NCBI RefSeq assembly: GCF_002095575.1
Contig: NZ_MLJJ01000006.1
Coordinates: forward strand, 62,001 to 126,000
Source of the DNA: Pantoea septica
GTDB lineage: Bacteria > Pseudomonadota > Gammaproteobacteria > Enterobacterales > Enterobacteriaceae
Length of the DNA stretch: 64,000 bases
Direction of reading: 5' to 3'
This document shows, one piece after another, positions 48,165-63,895 of the stretch. The first letter of the stretch is position 1. The number at the start of each line of letters is the position of its first letter. The notes beneath the pieces are model-generated. The model searched no databases. It saw only the letters and a program-made list of their open reading frames with translations, and was not told the origin of the DNA. The position numbers and the translations under genes were made by a program.

Positions 48165-48524
48165 CTAGCTGGAAGGGAAAAGCCCTTTCGCCTCTGATTT
48201 TGAATCTGTTGCCGTCATGCACTTCACATCACGCAGCGCCTGTAGCTCGGCGAGGCGCGATTTGGCTTTTTCGCTGGCGTTGTGGCGAGCGAGGCCGTTG
48301 CCGATGCCGAGATCGCCCATAAAACCCAGTACGGTACGATAGTCGAAGCTGCCGGTCTCCGTGATCTCCTGCTGGATATGGCGCGTTTTAACGATTTCCT
48401 GTTCCAGCGCCTGGCAATTTAGCGTTACCGCTTCTTCATCAGTTACCGCGGAAGCCTGGGGGTACTGCTTGGTCGCGCAGGCGGAGAGCAGCAGCATGGC
48501 TGCGATTAACCATAGTGTTTTCAT
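48165..48524 (-). CDS. Small lipoprotein of unknown function
   Basis: 119 residues with a lipobox LLSAC (Cys16) after a clear signal peptide, then a charged helical region (LNCQALEQEIVKTRHIQQEI, ASEKAKSRLAELQALRDVKC). The start at 48524 gives MKTLWLIAAMLLLSAC. A glycine-rich patch FMGDLGIGNGLAR resembles that of other small envelope lipoproteins. I do not recognise it. It is the last chromosomal gene before the phage island. Confidence 0.72.
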   Translation of the reverse strand: MKTLWLIAAMLLLSACATKQYPQASAVTDEEAVTLNCQALEQEIVKTRHIQQEITETGSFDYRTVLGFMGDLGIGNGLARHNASEKAKSRLAELQALRDVKCMTATDSKSEAKGLFPSS

Positions 48525-48562
48525 TGGGGTGTTTGTTACGCCGTGCTGATTGTGGGGGGTAG

Positions 48563-48579
48563 ACCTGCATATCCATAAT
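48563..48579. repeat. left boundary repeat of the island (attL-like)
   Basis: ACCTGCATATCCATAAT matches, with one mismatch in 17, the sequence at 63927-63943, which is the 3' end of fliE. The two copies enclose the whole 15.4-kb phage-derived block. This copy too would read IMDMQV on the minus strand, as fliE ends. Confidence 0.6.
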
Positions 48580-48740
48580 TTCACTTTGCAGTTTTGCAGG
48601 AGTACGTTGATTCAGGCTGATTCAAGGTTTATCAGAAGCATACCGCAAGGCACGTTTTGCCCATTGGGTGAATACGAGGTGTTTTGCGGTTTTTTTTGTG
48701 CTTCATGTGTGCTACAGCACTTGATGTGCTCTAGTCTCCT

Positions 48741-48759
48741 CCCTCCCTGCCTCCCTCCC
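48741..48759 (-). other. G-quadruplex motif upstream of gtrA
   Basis: On the minus strand four GGG tracts with loops of 1, 5 and 1 bases form a textbook G-quadruplex motif. It lies within a pyrimidine tract in the 300-base stretch between the left repeat and gtrA, which holds no gene. Confidence 0.6.
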
Positions 48760-48895
48760 GTAGCCAGCGAAGACCTGCATGGTATATCTCTGCCACATCG
48801 CCTAGGCTTTTTTGCCTTACACATTCTGACGAATCCTTGCCATAGGTCTAATCTGATGCCAAGATCCGCACCTTCTGCTAATGGGGATTTTCTTA

Positions 48896-49255
48896 ATGGT
48901 TAAGCTTTTTGCGCGGTATGCCTCTGTCGGCGTCATCAACACGCTAATTCACTGGGTGGTCTTTACCATCCTCTATACAGAGGGCCAGACGCAATCCATT
49001 TCAAACTTTGCTGCTTTCTGCTTTGCGGTAACATTTTCTTTCTTTGCTAATGCAAAATGGACCTTTAGCACAGAAGCTACCACGATGCGTTATCTGCTTT
49101 ACCTCATCTTCATGGGCGGAATGGCAACTGCCATCGGCTTGTATGCAGACAAAATTCACGCCAACCCCATTGTGACACTTATCGTTTTCTCAGCCGTCAG
49201 CTTAATATGCGGTTTCGTCTATTCCAGGTTTGTTGTTTTCAAGGATCGGAAATGA
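48896..49255 (+). CDS. gtrA: GtrA, bactoprenol-glucose flippase
   Basis: GtrA is a 119-residue four-helix membrane protein that moves undecaprenyl-phosphate-glucose across the inner membrane for O-antigen glucosylation. [20 protein letters not shown] and [12 protein letters not shown] are family hallmarks shared with P22-type phage GtrA. The ATG at 48896 is chosen to match family N-termini. It overlaps gtrB by 4 bases. Confidence 0.93.
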
Positions 49256-50187
49256 AAATTTCTCTTGTCGTACCCGTATTTAATGAAGAGGATGCTATCC
49301 CACTTTTTTATCAAGAAGTTCGCAGATTTCCAGCCTTCGCAGAACATGAGGTCGAAATTGTCTTTGTGAACGATGGAAGCACGGACAGTACCGAAGCGGT
49401 CATCCTCCACTTAGATAAACAAGATGTGCTTGTGAAGCATGTGTCCTTTACTCGCAACTTTGGCAAAGAACCTGCTTTGTTTGCAGGCCTCGAATGTGCC
49501 ACCGGAGACGTCATTATCCCCATTGACGTCGACCTGCAAGACCCAATAAAGGTCATTCCCGAACTCATTGAGAAATGGAAGAAGGGTGCGGATGTTGTGC
49601 TGGCAAAGCGTGTAGATCGTAGTTCGGACAGTCGCATGAAGCGAGTAACCGCCGAGTGGTTCTATAAGCTTCACAACAAAATCAGCTCTCCTAAGATTGA
49701 GGAGAACGTCGGTGACTTCAGGCTAATGTCACGTGACGTAGTTGAAAATATTAAACTGCTCCAGGAGCGCAATCTTTTCATGAAGGGCATACTCAGTTGG
49801 GTCGGCGGAAAAACTGAAGTTGTCGAATACATCCGCGCTGATCGCATTGCTGGTAAAACAAAATTCAATGGCTGGAAACTATGGAATCTGGCGCTTGAGG
49901 GAATTACTTCATTTTCAACATTCCCTTTGCGGATGTGGACATACATAGGCCTGTTTGTTGCAAGTCTGTCATTCTGCTATGGCGCTTACATGATTCTCGA
50001 CACGCTATTTTTCGGAAATCCGGTTCATGGATATCCGTCAATCCTTGTATCAATTCTTTTTCTCGGGGGCATTCAGTTAATAGGAATTGGAGTGCTTGGC
50101 GAATATATTGGAAGAATATATATCGAGACGAAAGAAAGGCCTAGATATGTAATGAAAAACATAAAGAAAGATGCCAACCACAAATAG
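49252..50187 (+). CDS. gtrB: GtrB, bactoprenol glucosyltransferase
   Basis: GtrB is a GT2 enzyme that transfers glucose from UDP-glucose to undecaprenyl phosphate at the cytoplasmic side. It has 311 residues. The N-terminal catalytic domain has [11 protein letters not shown], the metal site DVDLQDP and [11 protein letters not shown]. Two membrane helices lie near 230-255 and 270-290. It would serve every gtr glucosyltransferase in the island. Confidence 0.94.
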
Positions 50188-50267
50188 CCATGAATCTTTT
50201 AAACTATCAAACCAACATTACCATTGTTATTTACATAAATAATTATTCGAGCCAGTTTATGTAATAG

Positions 50268-50398
50268 AGAGTACAAACAGAGCATTACCGAAATTTACCT
50301 TGATCAGCCAGTGCAGGACGGACTACATTAAGAAATTTTTTCCCAATAGATGCTCCACGGTTGAAATTCAGGCAACATATGTATTGAGAGAGGTTAGG
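50268..50398 (+). repeat. leader of gtr copy 1, repeated before gtr copy 2
   Basis: About 130 bases upstream of the first gtr gene. It shares ACAAACAGAGCATT, a TACATT-centre and GTATTGAGAGAGG with 50866-50990 before the second gtr gene. This shows the duplication includes the 5' leader. Confidence 0.7.
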
Positions 50399-50817
50399 AT
50401 GTTGAAGGAAAAAGGCTGGCTTAGCGCTGCCTCGATTGCAGGGCTGATGGCCCTGGCATTTGTGCTTCTGGTTTTAAGGCGACCAGATATCGTTACGCAT
50501 GCCCAGCCATGGGCTGAAGATGGCAGAGTTTGGATGGCGGGGATATATAATAATGGATTCTGGTCTTCTCTTTTCCTTCCACAGAATGGATATTTCCAGA
50601 CCATATCGAGAATAACTTACGGCGTAGCGCTGTGGTTTGGTTTATCTCACGCTGCTTTGGTTGCTAACATTCTGGCAATCTTAATAAGATGCTTCTTTGT
50701 AGGACTTGTACTTTCGAGTCGAATGAACTTTATCGGCATCTGGTACAGAATGGCATTGGTTATTTATTTTATATTTATGCCAAACGTGGCTGAAGGTTTC
50801 GTAAACATTACGAACGT
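50399..50817 (+). pseudogene. gtr copy 1, N-terminal part, interrupted by the nested element
   Basis: The first 139 codons of a serotype-specific O-antigen glucosyltransferase (MLKEKGWLSAASIAGL, HAQPWAEDGRVWMAGIYN). The reading frame runs as far as NITNV and then into unrelated sequence, ending at 50902. The missing C-terminal part is at 55342-56185. The two parts share TACGAACGT at the break. Joined there they give 1,254 bases without a stop, the same length as copy 2. Confidence 0.9.
50809..50817. repeat. left core (TACGAACGT) of the nested element
   Basis: A nine-base sequence at the point where gtr copy 1 is broken. The identical sequence is at 55342-55350, 46 bases beyond the intact integrase gene. 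Probably the crossover core of the integration. Confidence 0.85.
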
Positions 50818-50874
50818 GAGATGGTGTAGAAAAACGTCCGAGTTACTTCGGGTAAGAGCAAGAACAAACAGAGC

Positions 50875-50933
50875 ATTGCCGCAATTGAACCTGATCTGTT
50901 AGTGCAGAGCGGGCTACATTGCGGCAATTTTTT
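50875..50933 (+). terminator. terminator/attenuator in the leader of gtr copy 2
   Basis: A perfect 11-bp stem ATTGCCGCAAT/ATTGCGGCAAT around 32 bases, followed by six T. It lies between the left core and gtr copy 2, so it could stop or modulate transcription from gtrAB. Confidence 0.65.
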
Positions 50934-50990
50934 GCCCCACACATGCCCCATGGTTAAATTTTAGGCAGGCAGGTATTGAGAGAGGATAGT

Positions 50991-52244
50991 ATGGTGAAGG
51001 AAGAAGGCAGCCTGAGCGCGGTCACGGTTGTAGGGCTGATGCTGCTGGCGTTCGCTCTTTTGGTTTTGCGTCGTCCGGATATCGTTATTCACGCCCAGCC
51101 ATGGGCGGAAGACGGGAAAATCTGGATGGCAGGCATATATAACGAGGGGTTTTGGTCGTCGCTTCTACTGCCTCAGAATGGTTATTACCAGACGATATCA
51201 AGAATAGCTTACGGTATTTCGCTTGCTTTCGGTCTTGAGCATGCGGCATTGGGCGCTAACTTAATCGCTCTCCTTATTCGCTGCTGCTTTGTTGGATTCA
51301 TTCTTTCGTCTAGAATGAACTTCATTCCAGTCGCTTACCGACTGGCTGCAGCGGCATATTTTGTGCTTATGCCGAACTTGTCTGAAGGTTTCGTAAATAT
51401 TACCAACTCCCACTGGTATCTTTCAATGTATTTGGTAGCGGTTGTTATGGCAGAAATGCCAGAAAGTCGCGCATGGAAAATCCATGATTACGGCCTGCTT
51501 ATACTAAGCTCGCTCAGCGGTCCATTCGTCGTATTTATCGCGCCATGTTTGTTAATAAAAAGAATTCACGAAAGAGGTGGCATTCTAAATGCAATAAAAG
51601 GAATGAATACCTTCGATTTCATTATGGCTTCCTGCTGTGTTATTCAGATTGCCGCCATACTCTTATCTCCTGAAACAGCTCGATCATCCGCCCCGCTTGG
51701 CGCGTCGTTAGGCGTTTTGATAAAAATCGTATCCTATAGAATCATTGCAGGAACATTTTTCCCTAATGAAGCAATATCTTTTATTCCATTAAATAAATGG
51801 CTCTGCCTGGCATTGTTCCTTCTTTTTATCATACCAGCGGTTTACTACTTTTTCCGTGCGGGATGGAGATATAAAATCGCGATCATTTTTCCCACATTGA
51901 TGATTGGGTTTGCATTAACTAAACCGATGATGAGCATTACAGACCCACAGTGGCCTGTTTTCTTTGGCCCTGGTAATGGAGAAAGATACTTCTTCGTCAC
52001 TAATTTCGCGTTCTTCTGTTTTGTTTTGTTTATGATATCTAAGGCCGGAAAGGCAAGTAAGGTTGCTCTCCCTGTTCTATGCTTGCTCACCTTGCTTTTG
52101 GTAAGCCGAGATTTTCGTATGGAGCCTTATGCCGACGTGGGTTTCGCCAAGGACATTTCTGAGTTCAACTCATTACCTGAAGGGCAGGTTAAGGATATAC
52201 ACATCAATCCTCCAGGGTGGATTATGACGCTTCATAAAAAGTAA
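50991..52244 (+). CDS. Serotype-specific glucosyltransferase, gtr copy 2 (inside the nested element)
   Basis: 417 residues, a polytopic membrane protein with about ten helices. It transfers glucose from the flipped bactoprenol carrier to O antigen in the periplasm, with GtrA and GtrB. The N-terminus VVGLMLLAFALLVLRRPDIV and HAQPWAEDGKIWMAGIYNEG are closely related to copy 1, and both have exactly 1,254 bases. Start ATG 50991 with GAGAGAGG upstream. Lower GC than the backbone. Confidence 0.85.
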   Translation: MVKEEGSLSAVTVVGLMLLAFALLVLRRPDIVIHAQPWAEDGKIWMAGIYNEGFWSSLLLPQNGYYQTISRIAYGISLAFGLEHAALGANLIALLIRCCFVGFILSSRMNFIPVAYRLAAAAYFVLMPNLSEGFVNITNSHWYLSMYLVAVVMAEMPESRAWKIHDYGLLILSSLSGPFVVFIAPCLLIKRIHERGGILNAIKGMNTFDFIMASCCVIQIAAILLSPETARSSAPLGASLGVLIKIVSYRIIAGTFFPNEAISFIPLNKWLCLALFLLFIIPAVYYFFRAGWRYKIAIIFPTLMIGFALTKPMMSITDPQWPVFFGPGNGERYFFVTNFAFFCFVLFMISKAGKASKVALPVLCLLTLLLVSRDFRMEPYADVGFAKDISEFNSLPEGQVKDIHINPPGWIMTLHKK

Positions 52245-52250
52245 AGAAAA

Positions 52251-52278
52251 GGCCATCAATGCGATGGCCTTACTTTTT
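52251..52278 (+). terminator. terminator of gtr copy 2
   Basis: A GGCCATC/GATGGCC stem then TTACTTTTTAT, shortly after the stop codon. Confidence 0.8.
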
Positions 52279-53439
52279 ATTCTGCTGACAGTTCGAACTG
52301 GCAAGAGAATGCGCTGATGTTGGCGCCTGCCACGTTTCTTATGTAAAACTTGGCAGATGTTGCGCTACTTTCACTGGGAGCATATGAAAGAATGTAGTCA
52401 GCGCTAACGTTAATTGGCGTTGCTCTACCCCATGCCGGAGCCTCTTTGAATACGCCAGAAGGCAGAGCTACTGTATAGCTCCCGGTTGAGGCAGAGATTG
52501 CATTAACGGATGTCGTCTCTCTCTACGTATGAGGTTGTTGGCGTCGTGAATGATGCGTCAGTTGCGCTTCCCCGATGAATATTCCCTTGGTATGTGCTGT
52601 AGTTAAAATATGACAGGTCGGACAATGCTGTAGTCATATCACGAACAGTGTTGCCAGTTACAGACCAGTAGGAAATACTAGTGCTGCTTCCGGTAAGGAA
52701 TCCATTGAACCCTCTCGCATTGTTGTTTGCGATCATGCCCTCAATTCCGCCCGAAATATTTATTGCGTATTGAGTAGAAGCACCAGTGCTCAGCATATTA
52801 CCGTAGATTTGGTTGCCTGTAATTGTCGCATTATCACCCGATGACGTTATGGCCGTTCCGGCTACGCTGATCCAGTTATTAGAAATAATTAGCGCATCAA
52901 CTACAGAACTGATCGCGCTTCCTGTGCCAAGAATGATGTCAATAATGTTATTAGTGACAGTGGCCAGAAGTCCTGCCTGGAAGAAGGCTGCCTGAGTACA
53001 AGCAATAATTGTATTGTTGTTTATCATCCAGCCTTCACAGCGGTGCCCAACGGTTGTATCGGTAGACCAGTTAATGCCGCGGGAAAAGCTCATAATGGTG
53101 TTGCGTGTTACGCTGATGTTTACAGAGCTGAGGCCATTTATGCCTGTACCATACTGACCAACATACGCTGGAACGTTCATCAGCTCATTACCAGAGATTG
53201 TTCCATACCACGCATTTTGCAAGAGGATTGCATTCGCAAAGTAATAAGATGTTGAGTTAACTGGATTCCCAATAAAACAGTTAGTGATACTCCAGTGTTC
53301 AACAGCACTTCCAGACAGGTCACCGATAACAATTGCCCCTGCGGCGCGGGGGACCAGCTTAAGGCCGTTTATTGAAGATCCACTCGCAAGAACAACTATC
53401 CTGCCTGAACCTCCAAACCTGATTTCTGCACCATTTGAT
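52277..53439 (-). pseudogene. phage tailspike-like protein, broken
   Basis: The minus strand encodes a right-handed beta-helix protein with many Ile/Asn turns (VNISVTRNTIMSFSRG, ISNNWISVAGTAITSSG). The 5' part is cut off at about 53439, where an HNH fragment begins. A one-base frameshift near 52510 separates the helix part from the C-terminal domain (SASTGSYTVALPSGVFKEAP to FSCQFELSAE). It probably recognised O antigen in the ancestral phage. Confidence 0.75.
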
Positions 53440-53650
53440 GAACATCAAAGACAGGGATGAAAGAGGCCGCACATATGTTCCAGGTGGAGAAAATTCCCCG
53501 CACTCAAAACTGACTGATGAAGACGTCCTATCCATCCTTAGCTCCTCTGAAAGTCACCGGGCCTTAGGAAAGAAATTCGGCGTCATGCCATCTGCCATCT
53601 TTTCCATAAAGAAAGGCAAGACATGGAAACACTTAGGGAAGAGAGATTAA
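53435..53650 (+). pseudogene. C-terminal fragment of a phage HNH-type homing endonuclease
   Basis: 71 codons: RTYVPGGENSPHSKLTDEDV and GKKFGVMPSAIFSIKKGKTW, the DNA-binding C-terminal domain of phage HNH endonucleases. The catalytic domain is missing, since the frame begins directly at the junction with the tailspike remnant. Confidence 0.65.
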
Positions 53651-53722
53651 GTGGCGCTCGTCGTGAGCATTTTAATAATTATCGCCTGCATAGTGGCCTG
53701 GTACTGGCCGGATAAGGAGTAG
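53651..53722 (+). CDS. 23-residue membrane micro-protein upstream of xis
   Basis: From a GTG directly after the HNH stop: ALVVSILIIIACIVAWYW then PDKE. One hydrophobic helix. The last codons (AAG GAG TAG) contain the ribosome site of xis, 3 bases further on. A related micro-frame precedes the second xis (62255). Confidence 0.45.
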   Translation: MALVVSILIIIACIVAWYWPDKE

Positions 53723-53724
53723 GT

Positions 53725-53982
53725 ATGGAAAACGTAATTCAGCTGATGCCCAGCAAATGGGTTACTGAAGATGTTCTGATAGCAATCACCGGCTTGCGGC
53801 CCGGCACAATCAAGAGAGCCAGGGAGAACGCCTGGCTTCAGGGTAGAGAGTACCTGCTCTTCTCTCCAGTGAACGATCCCAAGCCAAACAGTGAAGCAAT
53901 GTACAACCGTGAGGCAATCGACAAGTGGATCGAGTCTCAGGCGCAACGTCAACCAGATGCGGCTGAGCGGAAAAAGGCTTAA
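53725..53982 (+). CDS. xis: Excisionase (Xis) of the nested element
   Basis: 85 residues, MENVIQLMPSKWVTEDVLIA, with a winged-helix DNA-binding domain of phage excisionases (GLRPGTIKRARENAWLQGRE). It directs integrase toward excision. It lies 33 bases before int. A near-identical relative is at 62332. Confidence 0.85.
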   Translation: MENVIQLMPSKWVTEDVLIAITGLRPGTIKRARENAWLQGREYLLFSPVNDPKPNSEAMYNREAIDKWIESQAQRQPDAAERKKA

Positions 53983-54015
53983 CCTGACCTCCCTTTCAAC
54001 CAATGGAGATGGCGC

Positions 54016-55296
54016 ATGTCAAAATCAGCGTATCCGACCGGAGTAGAAAACCATGGCGGCTTTCTGTGGATCTGGTTTGTCTATCAGGGTAAAAGAGTTC
54101 GTGAGTCACTTGGAGTACCTGACACGCCGAAAAACAGGAAGGCTGCCGGTGAACTCAGAACGGCGATTACGTATCGCATCCAGACGGGAGCATTCAGTTA
54201 CAAAGAGCAATTCCCGCAGTCGAAGCGATATGAAACAGACAGAAGCAAGCAGAGTGTCACCATTAAGGAGATGTGTGAAAAATACCTAGCGCTGAAGCAG
54301 CCGACAATATCTGCTATCACATTGAAAAACTTCAGGGCCAGACTGAAGACTGTTTACCTTCTTCTTGGCGAAGATGTACCGATATCATCAATCCGGCAAG
54401 AGGACGTTCTAAGGGTAAGGAACGAGCTTCTGAACGGAACCCAGTTCATTCGCATGTTTCAAGATGAGCCTAAAAAAGGGCGCACGGTCACAACTGTAAA
54501 CTGCTCTATTTATCAACTTAAAAGCGTGCTGGCATTTGCTGTAACCAACGGATACATCGCTAACAATCCGGCAGATGGCATTTCTCCTATGAGGAAGGAT
54601 AAGAGTGCTCCGGACCCGCTATCCAAGGATGAATTTCGCAGGATCATCAGTGCAGCCAGTCATCCACAGATTAAGAATTTCTGGTCAATCGCGGTATACA
54701 CCGGCATGCGCCATGGTGAGTTGTGCGCGCTGGCATGGGAAGATGTCGATCTTGTGAATGGCACAATCACCGTCTGCAGAAACCTTACCGCTCTGGGTAA
54801 TTTCTGTAAGCCTAAAACATCCGCAGGCGAAAGGGTGATCAATTTAATCGAGCCAGCAATTCAGGCATTAAAAGACCAGATGCTGGTCACAAGGATGAAG
54901 AAGGCAGTTGAGATAGAGGTTGTTGGGAGAGAGTATGGCAGGAAAGAACGGCAGGATGTGACTTTTGTTTTTAGCTCAGAAGTGACCGATGTATCAGGTA
55001 ACGGCGGTGGGCACTACTCAGTCATGTCAGTAAGCGGTATGTGGAAAGGCATTATCAAACGATCTGGGGTCAGGCACAGGAGGCCATACCAGACGAGGCA
55101 CACCTATGCGTGCTGGTCACTCACTGCAGGAGCTAATCCAAGTTTCATTGCCTCACAAATGGGCCACCGAAACGCGCAGATGCTTTATACGGTTTATGGA
55201 AAGTGGATGAGTGACAATAACAGTGAGCAAGTTGACCTTCTAAACAGCAAACTAAACGCATTTGCCCCATCAGTGCCCCAAAGGAAAGAGGCTTAA
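54016..55296 (+). CDS. int: Tyrosine-recombinase integrase of the nested element, intact
   Basis: 426 residues. An N-terminal arm-binding part (YPTGVENHGGFLWIWFVYQG), a core-binding helical domain, and the catalytic domain with R232 (TGMRHGELCALAWEDVDL), R361 (QTRHTYACW), H384 (MGHRNAQM) and a nucleophile Tyr at about 394 (YTVYGKW). No lesion is visible. The right core lies 46 bases after its stop. Confidence 0.93.
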   Translation: MSKSAYPTGVENHGGFLWIWFVYQGKRVRESLGVPDTPKNRKAAGELRTAITYRIQTGAFSYKEQFPQSKRYETDRSKQSVTIKEMCEKYLALKQPTISAITLKNFRARLKTVYLLLGEDVPISSIRQEDVLRVRNELLNGTQFIRMFQDEPKKGRTVTTVNCSIYQLKSVLAFAVTNGYIANNPADGISPMRKDKSAPDPLSKDEFRRIISAASHPQIKNFWSIAVYTGMRHGELCALAWEDVDLVNGTITVCRNLTALGNFCKPKTSAGERVINLIEPAIQALKDQMLVTRMKKAVEIEVVGREYGRKERQDVTFVFSSEVTDVSGNGGGHYSVMSVSGMWKGIIKRSGVRHRRPYQTRHTYACWSLTAGANPSFIASQMGHRNAQMLYTVYGKWMSDNNSEQVDLLNSKLNAFAPSVPQRKEA

Positions 55297-55341
55297 ACAA
55301 TTAGCATTTAAATACATGTAGTTATATCTCAATGCCATTTC

Positions 55342-55350
55342 TACGAACGT
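55342..55350. repeat. right core (TACGAACGT) of the nested element
   Basis: Same nine bases as 50809-50817. Directly after it the reading frame of gtr copy 1 resumes in phase (T-N-V-H-W-Y-L). Confidence 0.85.
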
Positions 55351-56185
55351 TCACTGGTATCTTTCAATATATCTTGTCGCGGTTGTTATGGCCAAAGATG
55401 CAGAAAGTTTACCAGAGAAAATGCATGACTTCATTGTTCTGGTGATAAGCGGACTAAGTGGGCCCTTCGTTGTTTTCATTGCACCATGCCTGATTATAAA
55501 GAGAATCTATACAAGAGAGGGGTTGATTAATGCGGTTAAAGGCATCAACCTGTTTGACGTTGTCATGGCTATTTGTTGTGTAATCCAGTTGTGGGCAATC
55601 CTTGCAACATCAGGATCGACACGCATTGATGCGCCTCTGGGATATAGCTTTGGCTTGCTTGCCGACATCGTTTCTTGTCGCATTATTTATGGCTCATTCC
55701 TTCCATTTAACATGGCGCGAGAAATGGCTGCGCACGGTAATGTCAATGCAGGGTTGTTCATCATTCTTTGCGTCGTACTACTATTTGCCTTCTTCCGGTA
55801 TGGATGGAGAGTGAAATGCCTTATTCTCTTCCCGCTTCTGATGATAGGCTTTGCGCTTAAAAGCCCGGTCATTGCTATTGGCCAACCCCAATGGCCTCTG
55901 ATATTTAATACGGAAAGTGGTGAAAGATATTTCTATGTTACCAACATAGCTCTGGCATGTCTGGCTATCGCACTGGCTTCGTCCATCACGAAGATCAGGA
56001 TTACCATCCTTTCCGTCGGAGTGATTATCTTCCTTTCTTTTGTCCCTAAACATTTCCGGCTCCCTGCCCTTCCTGCGTCTGGTTACTATCAGGATGTTAA
56101 GTCGTTTGATGAAAAACCTTCTGGTGAAACGGTTTCTATAAGGATTCTGCCGCCAGGATGGGACATGAAACTTATTAAAAAATAG
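55342..56185 (+). pseudogene. gtr copy 1, C-terminal part
   Basis: The last 280 codons of the interrupted glucosyltransferase (HWYLSIYLVAVVMAKDAESL to ILPPGWDMKLIKK), matching the C-terminal two thirds of copy 2, including YFYVTNIALACL and the end PPGW. No start codon of its own is expected to work. Excision of 4,533 bases would restore it. Confidence 0.9.
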
Positions 56186-56191
56186 AATGGA

Positions 56192-56216
56192 GCCCACCTT
56201 CCCGGTGGGCTTTTTT
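56192..56216 (+). terminator. terminator of gtr copy 1
   Basis: GCCCACC/GGTGGGC with a 5-base loop and six T. Confidence 0.85.
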
Positions 56217-56370
56217 ATGCCATAAAGATATTACCAGTCTGAACACTACCCGCACCTGCATTAATAGATGTTGCACAAGTAAATACGTTACCTGTAGCAC
56301 AGGTATAATATGCGACTCCCTCAGTGAGAGAGTAAGAGTTTCCGGTTGTTCGAAAGGCGTTGCCGGAAAA
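56215..56370 (-). pseudogene. C-terminal remnant of a phage tail protein
   Basis: On the minus strand an open stretch codes TTGNSYSLTEGVAYYTCATG and INAGAGSVQTGNIFMA before a stop. A stop also lies just upstream, so only the end of a tail or tailspike protein remains, convergent with gtr copy 1 as in P22-type phages. Confidence 0.5.
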
Positions 56371-56373
56371 AAT

Positions 56374-56642
56374 TTAGACTGTCGGCCGACACGGCTCACA
56401 AACGGACACTATCTTTGCCTTTACCCTCCCCAGCACGATAATTCCTTCCATATCATCCCCGTCGATCGTTTCACCATCCTGCGTTATCAATCTGGAAGCA
56501 AACAGCTTGCCTACCACCGGGTAGCCATAGTACTGAAAAGCCATTTCATCGCCAGGCTTCATCGTTTCGGCACGGTCTACGATGACAAGCCCGTCTGGCG
56601 TCTCCACACGGACACGCTGTCGTTTTCATATTCCCTGAACAT
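56374..56642 (-). pseudogene. SOS-linked S24/UmuD-like phage protein, frameshifted
   Basis: From the ATG at 56642 the frame reads MFREYENDSVSV, then shifts by one base near 56605 to VETPDGLVIVDRAETMKPGD and LITQDGETIDGDDMEGIIVL. This resembles the C-terminal domain of LexA/UmuD-like phage proteins (PGD plus a final beta strand). A LexA-type box lies 24 bases upstream. Probably inactive because of the frameshift. Confidence 0.5.
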
Positions 56643-56665
56643 AAAGCTACCCTTTACATTCATCA

Positions 56666-56681
56666 GTGTGTATAAACACAG
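56666..56681 (-). promoter_or_regulatory. LexA-type box
   Basis: On the minus strand CTGT-GTTTATAC-ACAC, one base off CTGT-N8-ACAG, upstream of the S24-like remnant. Confidence 0.55.
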
Positions 56682-56707
56682 TGATATTCAGAACTGGTTT
56701 TTGCAAT

Positions 56708-56817
56708 CTGTCTGGGGGTTTGTCATGAGTATGTGAAGGGCTAAGATTTGGGTAACCACCCCGCAGCCCGCTCAGACAGGTGCGACGAAGATCTGCCCCT
56801 TCGCCGGGGCTTTTTTT
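56708..56817 (+). ncRNA. possible structured RNA ending in a terminator
   Basis: CTGTCTG (56708-56714) pairs with CAGACAG (56773-56779). Inside, GGGCT pairs with AGCCC. A GCCCC/GGGGC hairpin with seven T follows (56795-56817). No gene lies here. It could be a phage small RNA or the tail of a lost transcript. The region 56818-56990 after it, before gtr copy 3, shows only AT-rich promoter-like sequence. Confidence 0.35.
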
Positions 56818-56990
56818 GTGTTAGGATTTACGCCAACTTAAGAAAGGGGTACTAATCATGAGTAGTTGTGCATATGAGGCCATAAGAATATACCTCGGCA
56901 TATAATAAGAAACGATAGGAGTTAAGTAGTTAATAAGTAGCAATAACGAATACCATTTTTGATAAATGCACAAAGCTGGACAAAATAAAC

Positions 56991-58469
56991 ATGCTTGCTA
57001 AGACCATATCTTTAGGTAATGAAGAGCTAAAAAAATACCGATATATTTTTATAGCCGCACTGGTGTCTTATATACTCATTTTTGGATTTGAGCTTACTCA
57101 CTTCACCTTGTCCATTGATGAAGAACTAATGGATAATTTTCACCAGACTCTTAGTTTGGGACGCTGGGGACATGCCTTGTTGAGGAAATACATTCTTCCT
57201 GAGCCATACATTCCTTTTTTTACATTGATTCTTTCTATTCTTATACTTTCTGTATCATCTGTTATAGCAAGTGTTTACCTTGATCTATCCACACGCCAAT
57301 CTGTAATTTTTGTCATAATGCTGGCTGCGATACCTCAGATGGCATATCAGCTTGAGTTCAGCAATCAAGCGGATACTATTGCCATATCAGTATTGTGCTC
57401 CGTGTTGTCGTTAACTTTACTGAATCGCTTGAGCATTGTTAATGCTGTCTCATTTGTCTTACTAACTGTCGCTTCGCTTTCAATTTATCAGTCAATATTC
57501 CTTTACGCCGCCTCATTGTTGATGGTATGGGTGTCAATTGGTGTTTTCAGAGGAAATCTAAATTTCATAAAATCATTAAAGATATGTACAATATTCTTGT
57601 TTTTAGTTATCATTTCTCTCATTATCAATAGTTACGTATCCGTCGTAGTCTCCAGCCATTACAATGTAGCCATTTCCGACTATCTTTCTGACAGGATGGG
57701 ATGGAAGATTGCGCCGACGCATACTATTATAATGAATATAATTGGCGTAACTAGAGACTATTTAACTTTCAATGCTGAATATGGAATGAATGCTTTCCCT
57801 TTCTCAGTATTGTTCCTGCTGGCATCTGTCGCAGGTGCGTTTTATTATCGTAAAAATCCAATTCTTACTTCTGTTGTGCTGGTTCTGACTTTTTTTTCTG
57901 CATTCTCTCTTAATTTTGCTCTAGGCATGAGGTTACCACCAAGAACTATGACGCAAATACCTGTGGTGTTTGCTGGATTATTCATCATGGCTGTGCTTAT
58001 CTTCAGGTTGAATGTTAGCGCGCTGGTAATTGCATTAATGTTCCTACTCACTAGTGCGGCATCTTCTAACAGGTTATTTTATACAGACTATATGGCCAGA
58101 AAAGCTGACGACCACCTGGCTACCAGAATAGTTGTGGCAATACAGCAGGAATATCCTACCGTAGATATTGATAATACACCCATATTCTTCTACGGAAGCT
58201 ATACGCCTTATAACCAATGGTCACTAGCTAATTCTGATATTTTTGGTCGTTCGTTCTTTAGTCAGGACAAGGGTAATAACACAAGGATGAATGGTTATCT
58301 TTCTATTTCCAACATAATTAAAGTTAAGCGCCCGAACCCTGAACAAGTAGCAATGGCCAGAGAGGCAGGGGCTGACTTGCCATCCTGGCCGAACAAAGGC
58401 TCAGTTTCAATGGTTAATGGTGTATTGATAGTTAAGCTATCTAATGAACTTAGCAAGTATAATAATTAA
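56991..58469 (+). CDS. GtrII-type glucosyltransferase, gtr copy 3
   Basis: 492 residues with about ten membrane helices. The sequence around FTLSIDEELMDNFHQTLSLG and WGHALLRKYILP is that of the Glucos_trans_II (GtrII) family of serotype-converting glucosyltransferases. It is not related in sequence to gtr copies 1 and 2. It probably uses GtrA/GtrB-made bactoprenol-glucose. It is strongly AT-rich, as for transferred phage DNA. Confidence 0.82.
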   Translation: MLAKTISLGNEELKKYRYIFIAALVSYILIFGFELTHFTLSIDEELMDNFHQTLSLGRWGHALLRKYILPEPYIPFFTLILSILILSVSSVIASVYLDLSTRQSVIFVIMLAAIPQMAYQLEFSNQADTIAISVLCSVLSLTLLNRLSIVNAVSFVLLTVASLSIYQSIFLYAASLLMVWVSIGVFRGNLNFIKSLKICTIFLFLVIISLIINSYVSVVVSSHYNVAISDYLSDRMGWKIAPTHTIIMNIIGVTRDYLTFNAEYGMNAFPFSVLFLLASVAGAFYYRKNPILTSVVLVLTFFSAFSLNFALGMRLPPRTMTQIPVVFAGLFIMAVLIFRLNVSALVIALMFLLTSAASSNRLFYTDYMARKADDHLATRIVVAIQQEYPTVDIDNTPIFFYGSYTPYNQWSLANSDIFGRSFFSQDKGNNTRMNGYLSISNIIKVKRPNPEQVAMAREAGADLPSWPNKGSVSMVNGVLIVKLSNELSKYNN

Positions 58470-58937: not shown

Positions 58938-59370
58938 ATATTCCTCTACAATAAATATCTCGTAAACTGACTGACTGGTGACATTCGCGCCAGCGCCAAT
59001 GCCAAATACCTTAAAATTATTGATAGCTATTAAAGTGTCACTCCCCATGCGCCGTCATCAAATCCGGCAATATATTTATTGTCCATATCGGAGCCGAAGA
59101 ATTTTAACCCAACTGATGGCGTTAAAATAAGAGGCGTTTGAATGTCCCCTGCCCATACTCCCGCAGCTTTAACTGTCTGATAGCGGACAGAAGCTCGAGT
59201 GACACCTGGCTGATATCCTCTTCAGGAAATACCCAGACTGAGATGGTCATATCCTGATTGTCGACTATTTGCATTCTCAAACCGGAACCTTCTAGCGCAA
59301 CTTCCAGAATCGCCTTAGCGGCGCTAACAGCTGAGCCTGTTGTTTGGGTTAAGCATAAAGCGATCGGCAT
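58938..59370 (-). pseudogene. phage structural protein remnant
   Basis: The open part 59122-59370 codes for MPIALCLTQTTGSAVSAAKA to QGTFKRLLF. After the stop, fragments in other frames continue (FFGSDMDNKYIAGFDDGAWG and NNFKVFGIGAGANVTSQSVY). It appears to be one or two decayed phage tail genes. I do not recognise the family. Confidence 0.45.
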
Positions 59371-59716: not shown

Positions 59717-60736
59717 TTATACAAAATACCTAAAAAACTTGATCCTTCTAGCGAGCCACACTATAAAAACCGAAACCAGGAAGATAATTAAAGTGTTTAC
59801 CGCAGGGTCTACAATAGCTCGCCCACGCATTACAAACTCGTATTTTTCTAAGACAATAAAAACCAGCCAATGGACCAGATAAACACCGAAAGAGCACTCA
59901 CCAACAGTCAATACAAAGCGAGTTAAAGTATTAGGTAGCCATGAGAAATCCAGAGACATCACGATATTAAAAATAACATATGATGACAAGAAAACAATGA
60001 GTGTATTAAAACCATAGAATCTCTCGTCTGGTTTCCCAGCCAGCCCGGAAGCATTAAGGTTAAGCCATGAATTTAATGAAAGAAGAGCAAAATATATCAG
60101 AAGTGCTGGTAATACTCTTACTTTCTTATGCATGTATGGAAAAGCCATTGCATACAATAAAAAGGATGGAAAAGTAAGATTAAATTGATTCAAACCAGAC
60201 AGGAATCCATAGTCCCCTGGCATTAACTTAGAGTAAGCGATAATTGAAGGCAGACATATTGTGAAAAAGAAAACAACCCAAAAAAGATATTTGAATTTAT
60301 CTTTTCCTTCTTCATAAAAAACATGTTTAACAAGCGGCAATGCAAACATAAATCCAATAAAAGGAGCTATAAACCAGAGGTGGAATGATGTACTCCTTGT
60401 GAATAGTCTGATTATAAACTCAATAAAACTACCCCCGCCATTATAAACATAATAAATTACAGACCATGTAATAAAAGGAATCCCTATCCTGATCAGTCTT
60501 GATGCCAAGCCTTTCTGGCTTTTATTGTTAAACGATATATATGCGGCAATTATAAAAAAAACAGGAACGCAGAATCTAGATATTGTGTAATAAATATGAC
60601 TGGAGATCCACGCTAGGTAATTTTTACTCATTAAATTCGGATCATAATAGTGTTGCATAGTCATATGAATTAGTATGACACCAACGACAGCCATGAAACG
60701 TAGAACCTCAATATTTAAATTTTTTATTTGCTTCAA
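59717..60736 (-). CDS. O-antigen acetyltransferase-like membrane protein (acyltransferase family 3)
   Basis: 339 residues with about ten membrane helices. The N-terminus NIEVLRFMAVVGVILIHMTM carries the catalytic-type His, followed by FCVPVFFIIAAYISF and WFIAPFIGFMFALPLVKHVF. Such phage-borne enzymes O-acetylate O antigen (Sf6 Oac type) or act like WecH. It is strongly AT-rich and alone on the minus strand in the phage island. Acceptor sugar unknown. Confidence 0.8.
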   Translation of the reverse strand: MKQIKNLNIEVLRFMAVVGVILIHMTMQHYYDPNLMSKNYLAWISSHIYYTISRFCVPVFFIIAAYISFNNKSQKGLASRLIRIGIPFITWSVIYYVYNGGGSFIEFIIRLFTRSTSFHLWFIAPFIGFMFALPLVKHVFYEEGKDKFKYLFWVVFFFTICLPSIIAYSKLMPGDYGFLSGLNQFNLTFPSFLLYAMAFPYMHKKVRVLPALLIYFALLSLNSWLNLNASGLAGKPDERFYGFNTLIVFLSSYVIFNIVMSLDFSWLPNTLTRFVLTVGECSFGVYLVHWLVFIVLEKYEFVMRGRAIVDPAVNTLIIFLVSVFIVWLARRIKFFRYFV

Positions 60737-62254: not shown

Positions 62255-62314
62255 ATGGGCTGGATTATCACTAATCTTGCCCTTTTTATTTGTATCGTGC
62301 TGGTCTGGCTATAG
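62255..62314 (+). CDS. 19-residue membrane micro-protein upstream of the second xis
   Basis: MGWIITNLALFICIVLVWL and stop. The sequence after the stop still reads PPKE and a stop in frame, like the end (WPDKE) of the micro-frame before xis 1. The TAG replaces a Trp codon, so this copy is shortened. It also carries the AAGGAG of the next gene. Confidence 0.35.
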   Translation: MGWIITNLALFICIVLVWL

Positions 62315-62331
62315 CCGCCAAAGGAGTAGAT

Positions 62332-62580
62332 ATGGAAAACGTAATTCAGCTGGCGCCCAGCAAATGGGTTTCAGAATCTGTGCTGATGGCTATTACTGGC
62401 CTGAAGAAAAACACGATTAAGACAGCAAGGGAAAAGAGCTGGATGGAGGGTCGTGAGTATAAGCACATTTCGCCGGATGGCATGCCGATGGATAACAGCA
62501 TGTGCTTCTACGACTGGAAAGCTGTTGAGAAGTGGATCGAGAATCAGCCAGCAACGATTCCGCGGCGTAAATCTGCTTAA
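62332..62580 (+). CDS. xis: Excisionase of the outer prophage
   Basis: 82 residues: MENVIQLAPSKWVSESVLMA, GLKKNTIKTAREKSWMEGRE and VEKWIENQ, closely related to the excisionase at 53725. Its integrase partner, 30 bases downstream, is broken, so it probably has no function unless it acts on the intact integrase. Confidence 0.85.
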   Translation: MENVIQLAPSKWVSESVLMAITGLKKNTIKTAREKSWMEGREYKHISPDGMPMDNSMCFYDWKAVEKWIENQPATIPRRKSA

Positions 62581-62610
62581 ATGCAGATCACTTTCAACAG
62601 GAGACAGGAA

Positions 62611-63895
62611 AATGTCTGCATATCCAACAGGCGTGGCCCCCAACAAAAACCATCTTCGGATCTGGTTCATGTATGAGGGTAAAAGACGGTGGGAGGCGCT
62701 TGGTGTACCCGACACGCCGAAGAACAGGAAGGTGACTGGCGAGTTGCGAAGCAACATCGTGTACCGGATAAAAACAGGGACGTTTAATTACCGCAGCCAG
62801 TCCCCCGACTCGCCGCTGTTTAAGAACGAGATAGATTCACCTAAATCATTAGCGATAAGTGATGCGGCGGATTTATGGCTAAAGCTGAAAAAGCCGGACT
62901 GGGCGAACAGCTCATATGTAACGACCGAGCGACGGGTACGGGTTACGCTCGACCATATCGGGAACAGTCGGGACATCAGGTCAATAATGCAGAAGGATCT
63001 GCTTAACCTGCGCATAGAGCTGCTGAACGGAAGTTACTTTACCGGCAGGAAGATGAATATAGAGTAAAAAGGCAGGACGGCGGCCACGGTAAATTCCAGC
63101 ATGTCCGATCTGAAAGCCATCTTCGCCTTCGCGTACGGGAACGGATATATAGAGGAAAACCCGATGACGGGCATCAAGCCTCTTAAAAAATCCAACAAGC
63201 GGCCGGATCCAATCACGCGCGAAGAGTTTCCACGGCTCATTGCCGGATGCTCTACACGACAGAACGCGAACATGTGGTCGCTGGCGATCCTGACAGGAAT
63301 GCGCCACGGGGAAATCTGCGCGCTAGCCTGGGAGGATATAGACCTCGAAGCGAAGACAATAACCGTGTCGCGAAACCTGACGCCGCAGGGACTGTTCACC
63401 CCACCTAAAACGGAAGCGGGCAACAGGGTAATAAACATGCTCTATGCAGCAGCAGAGGTTCTTCGCGACCAGCGCGAGCTGACAAGAATGTATCCTCAGA
63501 CACCCTTCACCTTTCATACCAGGGATTTGGTGAGCGAATCGAGGAGCAGAAAACATTCGTCTTCAACGCCAGTCTGGATTCAGTAAACGGCAGGTCAGGC
63601 GCTTACTATTCAACAGAGTCGCCAGGTCAGATATGGAACAGTGCATTAAGGCGTACAGGCCTTCGTCACCGAAAAGCATATCAGTCCAGGCATACCTTCG
63701 CATGCTGGGCGTTGTCGGCAGGCGCAAACCCGAACTATGTCGCCGCGCAAATGGGTCACTCAGATGCGCAGATGGTCTATCGGGTTTATGGCGCCTGAAT
63801 GTCAGAGAACAATACGGATCAGCTTTCCCTTATCAACACGAAAATGAACGTTCTTTTGCTACATACGTGCTTCGCTAAAGTGGCCGTATAGTTAT
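62611..63895 (+). pseudogene. integrase of the outer prophage, broken in three places
   Basis: The sequence aligns from end to end with the intact integrase (YPTGVAPNKNHLRIWFMYEG; TGMRHGEICALAWEDIDL; SRHTFACWALSAGANPNYVA; MGHSDAQMVYRVYG). A TAA at 63065-63067 cuts it after about 152 codons. A frameshift near 63515 follows. A TGA at 63796-63798 stands where the other has TGG. It is certainly inactive. Confidence 0.9.

Follow-up and report, generated by a model that had tools for sequence, protein, structure and literature searches.

A 64,000-nucleotide stretch of a Pantoea septica contig (NZ_MLJJ01000006.1, positions 62,001 to 126,000; hereafter the window), which belongs to a 4.31-Mb Pantoea genome, carries a resident glucosyltransferase gene (gtr) split by an insert that brings a second, intact glucosyltransferase gene together with an excisionase gene (xis) and an integrase gene (int). 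The best overall explanation, to which we assign a probability of about 0.8, is that gtr-targeting temperate phages swap the resident glucosyltransferase for another, that the insert in the window is the remnant of such a prophage, and that the gene turns over in rounds. The comparison of loci presented below gives good support to the insertion and to the exchange of alleles; integrase activity, present excision, expression of the cargo gene and a change of the O-antigen are what we infer.

The split gene and its insert

The 9-bp core TACGAACGT is present exactly twice in the window, at 50809-50817 and 55342-55350, and a scan of the whole window found none on the opposite strand. An earlier note on this DNA had claimed that the first gtr copy breaks at the one core and resumes in frame at the other, which is correct to the base. 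Once the 4,533 bp between the cores are removed, 410 nt (50399-50808) and 844 nt (55342-56185) join into 1,254 nt with an open frame of 417 codons, the length of copy 2 (50991-52244) as the note had stated; the latter is listed as an open reading frame (ORF) of 422 aa from a TTG and has 417 aa from the ATG at 50991. The joined resident protein aligns end to end with the intact copy carried by a prophage of Pantoea latae (82% identity) and with copy 2 (56% identity). Such a fit in length and frame lies far beyond chance: the same kind of join yields 417 aa in P. latae and 416 aa in a prophage from IMG/VR.

The genes follow one another in the order gtrA, gtrB, 5' part of the resident gene (allele A), core, intact phage-borne gene (allele B), reverse ORF, short ORF, xis, int, core and 3' part of allele A. 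The locus is bordered on one side by a small gene (48165-48584), lipoprotein-like by eye and with no Pfam match, and on the other by fliE-fliF (Pfam). The earlier note had the insert adjoin the resident gtrAB, begin with the intact copy 2 and end with xis and int, both intact; each of these statements holds, the last by Pfam and PHROG matches. The features are as follows.

48896..49255, + strand: gtrA (flippase), resident, intact; PF04138, phrog_2224
49252..50187, + strand: gtrB (bactoprenol glucosyltransferase), resident, intact; PF00535, phrog_841/34335; 95% identity to P. latae
50245..50357, + strand: decayed phage attL arm copy, located after gtrB and before the resident gtr; E 2.3e-13 with a profile of 5 phage arms
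50399..50808, + strand: 5' part of the resident glucosyltransferase gene, allele A; phrog_19534, E 1.3e-24; sister to the P. latae phage copy, 96/92
50809..50817, + strand: attL core TACGAACGT, exact repeat
50818..50951, + strand: phage P' arm with hairpin and T-run, GCCCCA-N5-GCCCCA pair at 50934-50950; fold -27.8 kcal/mol, z -5.4
50991..52244, + strand: phage-borne intact GtrV-like glucosyltransferase, allele B, 417 aa; phrog_19534, E 9.6e-54
52503..53222, - strand: broken phage ORF, convergent with the glucosyltransferase gene; 61% match in G033 and 57% in G015, both beside gtr
53435..53650, + strand: short ORF with a partial HNH-type match; phrog_59, E 9.2e-9
53725..53982, + strand: xis (excisionase), intact, 85 aa, DUF1233; PF06806, phrog_539; 98% identity to the P. 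latae prophage
54016..55296, + strand: int (tyrosine integrase), intact, 426 aa; Arm-DNA-bind_2 and Phage_integrase; 73% identity to the P. latae prophage, 68% to G448
55264..55280, + strand: P arm, GCCCCA-N5-GCCCCA repeat pair inside the 3' end of int
55342..55350, + strand: attR core TACGAACGT, exact repeat
55342..56185, + strand: 3' part of resident gene allele A, still open; phrog_19534, E 7.5e-23 (ORF 55388-56185)

Beyond its gtr gene, the insert contains only int, xis and phage remnants, the structural, packaging and repressor genes being seen instead in the P. latae prophage. Since it also holds the broken reverse ORF (52503-53222) and the short ORF (53435-53650), its content suggests a deletion remnant of a larger prophage. 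The element is indeed site-specific, lies inside the resident glucosyltransferase gene and brings another, as the earlier note had it; what does not stand is its description as a self-standing small element, for which a remnant of a temperate prophage is to be substituted. The reverse ORF found no match in Pfam, PHROG, PDB or phage records, and is perhaps a tailspike, by its position alone. A mosaic boundary lies between xis and int: the former (53725-53982) is 98% identical to L048 2746-3000, and the adjoining int is 73% identical to that of the P. latae prophage.

Copy 2 is GtrV-like by sequence, with the PHROG match given above and 33% identity to SfV GtrV over 93%, and has no Pfam match. 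Among phage records, relatives of this glucosyltransferase were found only in SfV (two records) and SfX, at 31-33%, and no solved structure matched the glucosyltransferase alignment.

The insertion is not in a tRNA gene, none of which was found in the window; the core lies instead at nt 411 of the glucosyltransferase gene, as it does in P. latae, in the codons of the conserved stretch NITN-x-HWYLS, of which N136, I137, T138, N139, W142, Y143, L144 and S145 are invariant in 8 aligned proteins. The core varies among hosts (TACGAACGT, TACTAACT, ACCAATATG) and is identical at both ends within each prophage, as would be expected of the region of strand exchange. The core has a GCCCCA-N5-GCCCCA pair to either side of it, one within the int 3' end and the other 117 bp beyond the left core; the int-side pair occurs in 77 of the 80 integrase loci of the viral-contig set. 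In L015, L016 and L174, where a single piece contains both pairs, the distance between them is 208-209 bp; 203 bp is expected in a circle formed from the window insert. The pairs are probably the arm sites of the integrase. The latter is of the Gifsy-2/Fels-1 kind, characterized by Arm-DNA-bind_2 and Phage_integrase domains, a DUF1233 excisionase and the GCCCCA pair at the int 3' end, this last mark being an observation from the present analysis. Other members of this integrase family, L015 and L174 among them, likewise have a hairpin with a T-run between the attachment (att) core and the P' arm, placed as a terminator of int past the phage attachment site (attP) would be.

Prophages at the same gene position

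A search at the DNA level through 61 genomes from the genus led to P. latae (contig C6, NZ_MWUE01000015.1), where a 42-kb prophage with terminase, portal, head protease, tape measure, tail sheath and repressor genes is bordered by cores at C6:43526 and C6:1383. The gene that it splits joins in the same way into 417 aa, and its int and xis are respectively 73% and 98% identical to those of the window. In the IMG/VR contig 2903076451_000004 (G448), 12.9 kb lie between the cores, a third glucosyltransferase gene is split in frame (416 aa when joined) and the integrase is 68% identical to that of the window; the cargo consists of two DUF6056-family proteins with a small ORF ahead of each. In the window, P. 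latae and G448 alike, gtr or the other cargo adjoins attP, with int and xis on the opposite side. In all, the split gene can be rebuilt in frame in three cases, with the break at one position of the gene and with core repeats that match. The integrases next closest to that of the window reach 54% identity in 392 genomes from its family (a scan in which at most 4 candidates per genome were scored and from whose listing P. latae is absent, being outside the draw or missed) and 56% in viral contigs; among 997 phage records with an integrase match, none has at least 60% identity, the best among the matches listed being 54.2%.

That the two halves were once a single gene, as the earlier note held, is borne out by relatives with uninterrupted versions and by the same in-frame junction in the two further prophages. 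Where the note proposed to look for an empty site in relatives, uninterrupted versions of the gene exist (L118, L054, L091, L100 and others), no empty site with the exact 9-mer having come to light. At this chromosomal position the nearest relative is L118 (flank identity 96.7% over 3.1 kb); there, a different prophage is present, which bears gtrABC and in which the A-type gene is intact.

Three more loci also appear to be occupied. Two are the contigs L116 and L117, which have in common the broken 5' part and the attL arm, and differ in the downstream cargo, which encodes GtrII-like proteins of 478 and 511 aa, respectively, with 34% mutual identity; these proteins' genes are followed by Baseplate_J and Mu gp45-like genes in L116 and by lambda gpJ and tail assembly I-like genes in L117. 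The third, G033, is a decayed site with a frameshifted 5' part, an intact GtrV-like gene, a piece of the same reverse ORF and a 3' part with two stops, beyond which lies a second gtrA-gtrB pair. The cargo beside attL is diverse, being a GtrV-like protein, two different GtrII-like proteins or DUF6056 proteins. The glucosyltransferase family is present in 8 of the 61 genomes of the genus, with a copy broken at codons 135-148 in 3 of these 8; among loci matched by the glucosyltransferase alignment, the break occurs there in 4 of 20 on viral contigs (L107, which is P. latae again, L110, L116 and L117) and in 1 of 10 on genome contigs (L090, which is P. latae). When 48600-57000 was compared by megablast with 5,426 genomes of E. 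coli, only gtrAB gave matches, in 6 genomes. DNA patterns for attR (35 contigs) and for the arm (62 contigs) were also tried on viral contigs and set aside as mostly chance, tblastn returning only the known sites among them (P. latae, G448, L116 and L117).

Allele exchange and rival explanations

The alleles are mirrored between the window and P. latae, where the resident B gene is broken and the phage-borne A gene is intact. Indeed, the phage copy of the window is 88-90% identical to the broken P. latae resident gene and groups with it in trees of both the 5' part (100/96) and the 3' part (99/99). The window resident groups with the P. latae phage copy in the 5'-part tree (96/92) and, in the 3'-part tree, both belong to a four-row group with L118 and the Erwinia locus L091 (99/97). 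Rows L051b and L097, which lack the splitting motif, were dropped from the trees, and L117 is represented by its 5' part only.

The resident genes themselves bear marks of earlier events. In uninterrupted gtrABC loci inspected closely (L054, L055, L118, L091), gtr starts about 0-60 bp after gtrB; the residents of the window and P. latae are unusual in having about 200 bp between the two genes. This leader matches a profile of five phage arms, from which the residents were excluded and L116, being the same as L117, was left out (E 2.3e-13 in the window, 3.5e-14 in P. latae). At E 0.1, the profile has no match in the uninterrupted L051, L054, L091, L093, L094, L095, L097, L098, L100, L105, L106, L108 and L118; it has a weak one in L052 (0.0033), ahead of an orphan gtr, and it finds arms elsewhere in L055/L089 (past int) and in L117 (upstream of gtrA). 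The hairpin of the resident leaders is decayed, with -7.1 kcal/mol and z -0.75 in the window and -9.1 kcal/mol and z +0.36 in P. latae. By this resemblance, the two leaders are decayed phage arms, which would be the fossil of an earlier insertion of a solo gtr. Compared in 60-nt windows, the two resident copies show 83-92% likeness over the stretch from -129 to +171 of the gene; the value then drops to 53-63% (+201 to +381), with 72-77% in the last two windows. The P. latae resident and the phage copy of the window are 82-95% alike from +81 on, with homology running about 165 bp past the stop (79%). Because the likeness of the residents falls where that of the P. latae resident to the window phage copy holds, a recombination breakpoint can be placed near resident codons 37-57. 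Read most simply, the resident gene arrived when a solo gtr inserted on an earlier occasion, and its coding part was subsequently swapped with a phage copy via the conserved 5' end. It thus seems that phage alleles have already taken the place of resident ones in the past; in which direction each exchange went is what we infer.

The mechanism that we propose would involve temperate phages of Pantoea and relatives whose bacterial attachment site (attB) is the resident O-antigen glucosyltransferase gene, GtrV-like and third after gtrA-gtrB. An integrase of the Gifsy-2/Fels-1 type would recombine at the codons for NITN-x-HWYLS, attP lying between int and a lone gene for a glucosyltransferase, or for another membrane glycosyltransferase-like protein, without gtrA or gtrB. 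Insertion would halt the resident enzyme by cutting it near codon 139 of 417, and would place the phage enzyme beside the resident gtrAB in the same orientation, to take the place of the old enzyme with GtrA and GtrB; negative and positive conversion would be achieved in a single step. The use of gtr as attB would direct lysogeny to hosts where gtrAB partners are available, and excision would restore the old enzyme. Homologous recombination between the conserved 5' ends would carry phage alleles into the resident place, the gene turning over in rounds, and the window holds a 4.5-kb prophage remnant that retains gtr, xis, int and both att sites. With less assurance, we also lean towards a phage lineage, with both baseplate-type and lambda-like tails, specialised in the replacement of the host O-antigen glucosyltransferase: its attB would be the gene replaced, its partnerless glycosyltransferases beside attP would be interchangeable, and its alleles would cycle in rounds that leave fossil att arms.

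Several observations weigh against this explanation. A strong, terminator-like sense hairpin stands between gtrB and the phage gene in 4 of the 5 phage arms folded (-24.8 to -29.9 kcal/mol, z -4.7 to -6.9), being weaker in the L116/L117 arm (-16.7 kcal/mol, z -2.9); a simple terminator scan did not list it, as the fold exceeds its loop limit. Because this hairpin separates gtrB from copy 2, read-through from gtrAB cannot be assumed, and a promoter scan, with 7 promoter-like sites against 13.7 expected in shuffles, gave no + strand site between 50,818 and 50,991, so that expression of the cargo is not explained. The hairpin may dampen transcription without blocking it; alternatively, a promoter overlooked by the scan may serve the cargo. 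In the circle, it would end int transcription past attP, and lambda tI acts similarly in ending int transcription past attP. Furthermore, the int-side GCCCCA pair is coding sequence and could be kept for the protein, the L116 and L117 records contain no integrase and are both assigned by attL alone, and G033 has no int in the 14 kb fetched, its decay marking some insertions as dead ends. The 3'-part tree pairs the window resident with L118 (97/95) and not directly with the P. latae phage copy, and no excised form, attP circle or same-species empty site was seen in the sequences compared.

A first rival, doubtful in our view, is that the locus is a dead relic. A prophage would once have used the site, its 4.5-kb remnant would now be fixed, with permanent loss of the resident gene, and copy 2 would be silent or no more than incidentally expressed. 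The internal deletion and the broken phage ORF of the insert, the hairpin ahead of copy 2 and the decayed G033 version, with no int found, all agree with it. They are to be set against the state of the remnant, in which int and xis are intact, as are the two arms and the two 9-bp cores, and open frames persist in copy 2 and in both halves of allele A, dN/dS being low wherever it could be calculated (0.06 for the 5' part of A, 0.114 and 0.116 for the 5' and 3' parts of B; dS was saturated for three comparisons of the A 3' part). Given this preservation, either the insertion is recent or the halves have been kept. The dN/dS values are pairwise, and recent loss of function on one branch would be compatible with low ones, which is a further reservation about the gtr-swapping explanation. 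The use of the same site by the full-length P. latae and G448 prophages also speaks against a relic.

A second rival, which we judge improbable, is that only negative conversion matters, the phage breaking the resident enzyme and its own gene being an ordinary moron independent of the resident gtrAB. Its favourable evidence consists of the hairpin, which precedes the cargo in all five phage arms folded, and of the GtrII-like and DUF6056 cargoes, which come from families other than that of the broken gene. It accounts poorly for the distribution of gtrA and gtrB, no match to which was found by tblastn (E 0.01) inside the sequenced prophage stretches: in P. latae, G448, L117, G033 and the window, all GtrA/GtrB matches fall outside the split gene, and the 37.9-kb L116 record has none, the L117 record covering only part of its prophage. 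Nor does it account for the orientation of the cargo, on the same strand as gtrAB in 5 of the 5 sites with an adjoining gtrB visible (window, P. latae, G448, L117, G033), or for the exchange between resident and phage alleles, which implies a common role. Finally, an origin of the two copies by duplication or homologous recombination beside an unrelated int and xis, compatible with the likeness of their leaders and 5' ends, can be dismissed as most improbable in view of the exact cores, the arm repeats, the same-place in-frame junctions in three prophages, the related integrases and the different cargoes, the P. latae and G448 loci speaking strongly against it.

Known systems and neighbouring phage debris

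By analogy, the family would sit with serotype-converting prophages, with a logic close to that of the hlb-converting phages. Glucosylating phages of Shigella carry gtrABC next to attP, and SfI integrates at tRNA-thrW (PMC3636060); epsilon34 has been placed at argU (PMC2629481), and the gtr families of Salmonella occupy four genomic locations (PMC3688519). The present phages resemble SfI, SfV, SfX, P22 and epsilon34 in having a GtrV-like enzyme (33% to SfV GtrV), and SfI in having the modification gene beside attP with int and xis on the other side (PMC3636060). They differ from the SfI and epsilon34 kind, which carry a whole gtrABC and use tRNA genes (thrW for SfI, PMC3636060; argU for epsilon34, PMC2629481), and more broadly from the converting phages of Shigella and Salmonella, in that they bring a lone gene and have their attB inside a resident glucosyltransferase gene. 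Inactivation of a protein gene by insertion is shared with Staphylococcus phiSa3 in hlb, for which a reversible switch was proposed (PMC6597384) and which encodes immune-evasion factors (PMC5726172); unlike the phiSa3 cargo, which is unrelated to hlb, the GtrV-like cargo is another version of the broken gene and appears to use resident partners.

Some elements restore the gene that they enter (tRNA, icd and prfC types). The present phages are similar in that att lies within a gene and matching sequence is carried in; unlike those elements, which rebuild the same product, they supply a different allele or enzyme family and the old gene stays broken. The earlier note knew of no described case of such a swap, and a literature search that covered mainly papers available without subscription likewise found none: neither a gtr gene as attB, including in passages of PMC4924310, PMC3688519, PMC3636060 and PMC2629481, nor a phage that breaks one glucosyltransferase gene while bringing another.

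Serotype conversion is usually seen as the addition of a modification; here, lysogeny would exchange one for another, and the modification gene would be the landing site. This would naturally explain how the type-specific gtr turns over while gtrAB stay, and how different glucosyltransferases come to lie behind one gtrAB pair in related bacteria. It predicts a surface switch tied to excision and bears on how phages exclude competitors that read the O-antigen.

The surroundings of the split gene contain other phage debris. A second xis-int pair at 62290-63878, frameshifted, encoding an integrase of the same kind (about 48% identical) and ending just before fliE, probably represents the integrase side of an outer, older prophage by which gtrAB were introduced; a search for its att repeats between 48.56-48.96 kb and the fliE side gave only unconvincing matches of 9-11 bp. 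Between 56377 and 59370 lie a UmuD-like ORF (phrog_3469), an intact GtrII-like gene (56991-58469) and a tail-gene remnant (59122-59370) that resembles the P. latae and L118 prophages, forming a further layer of debris with another glucosyltransferase gene. An acyltransferase gene (PF01757) on the reverse strand at 59717-60736, possibly encoding an O-antigen acetylase, belongs to the same phage-derived region. In another Pantoea (G040), two tandem GtrV-like genes stand beside fliE (L051, 3893-6866), with no gtrAB in the 10 kb fetched, and could be orphan survivors at the same chromosomal spot. In Ca. Pantoea deserta (L055/L089), a compact unit of gtrA-gtrB-gtr, an ORF remnant, xis and int, with a 3' fragment of int upstream of gtrA, forms the conventional counterpart of the window remnant, with a different integrase (45%).

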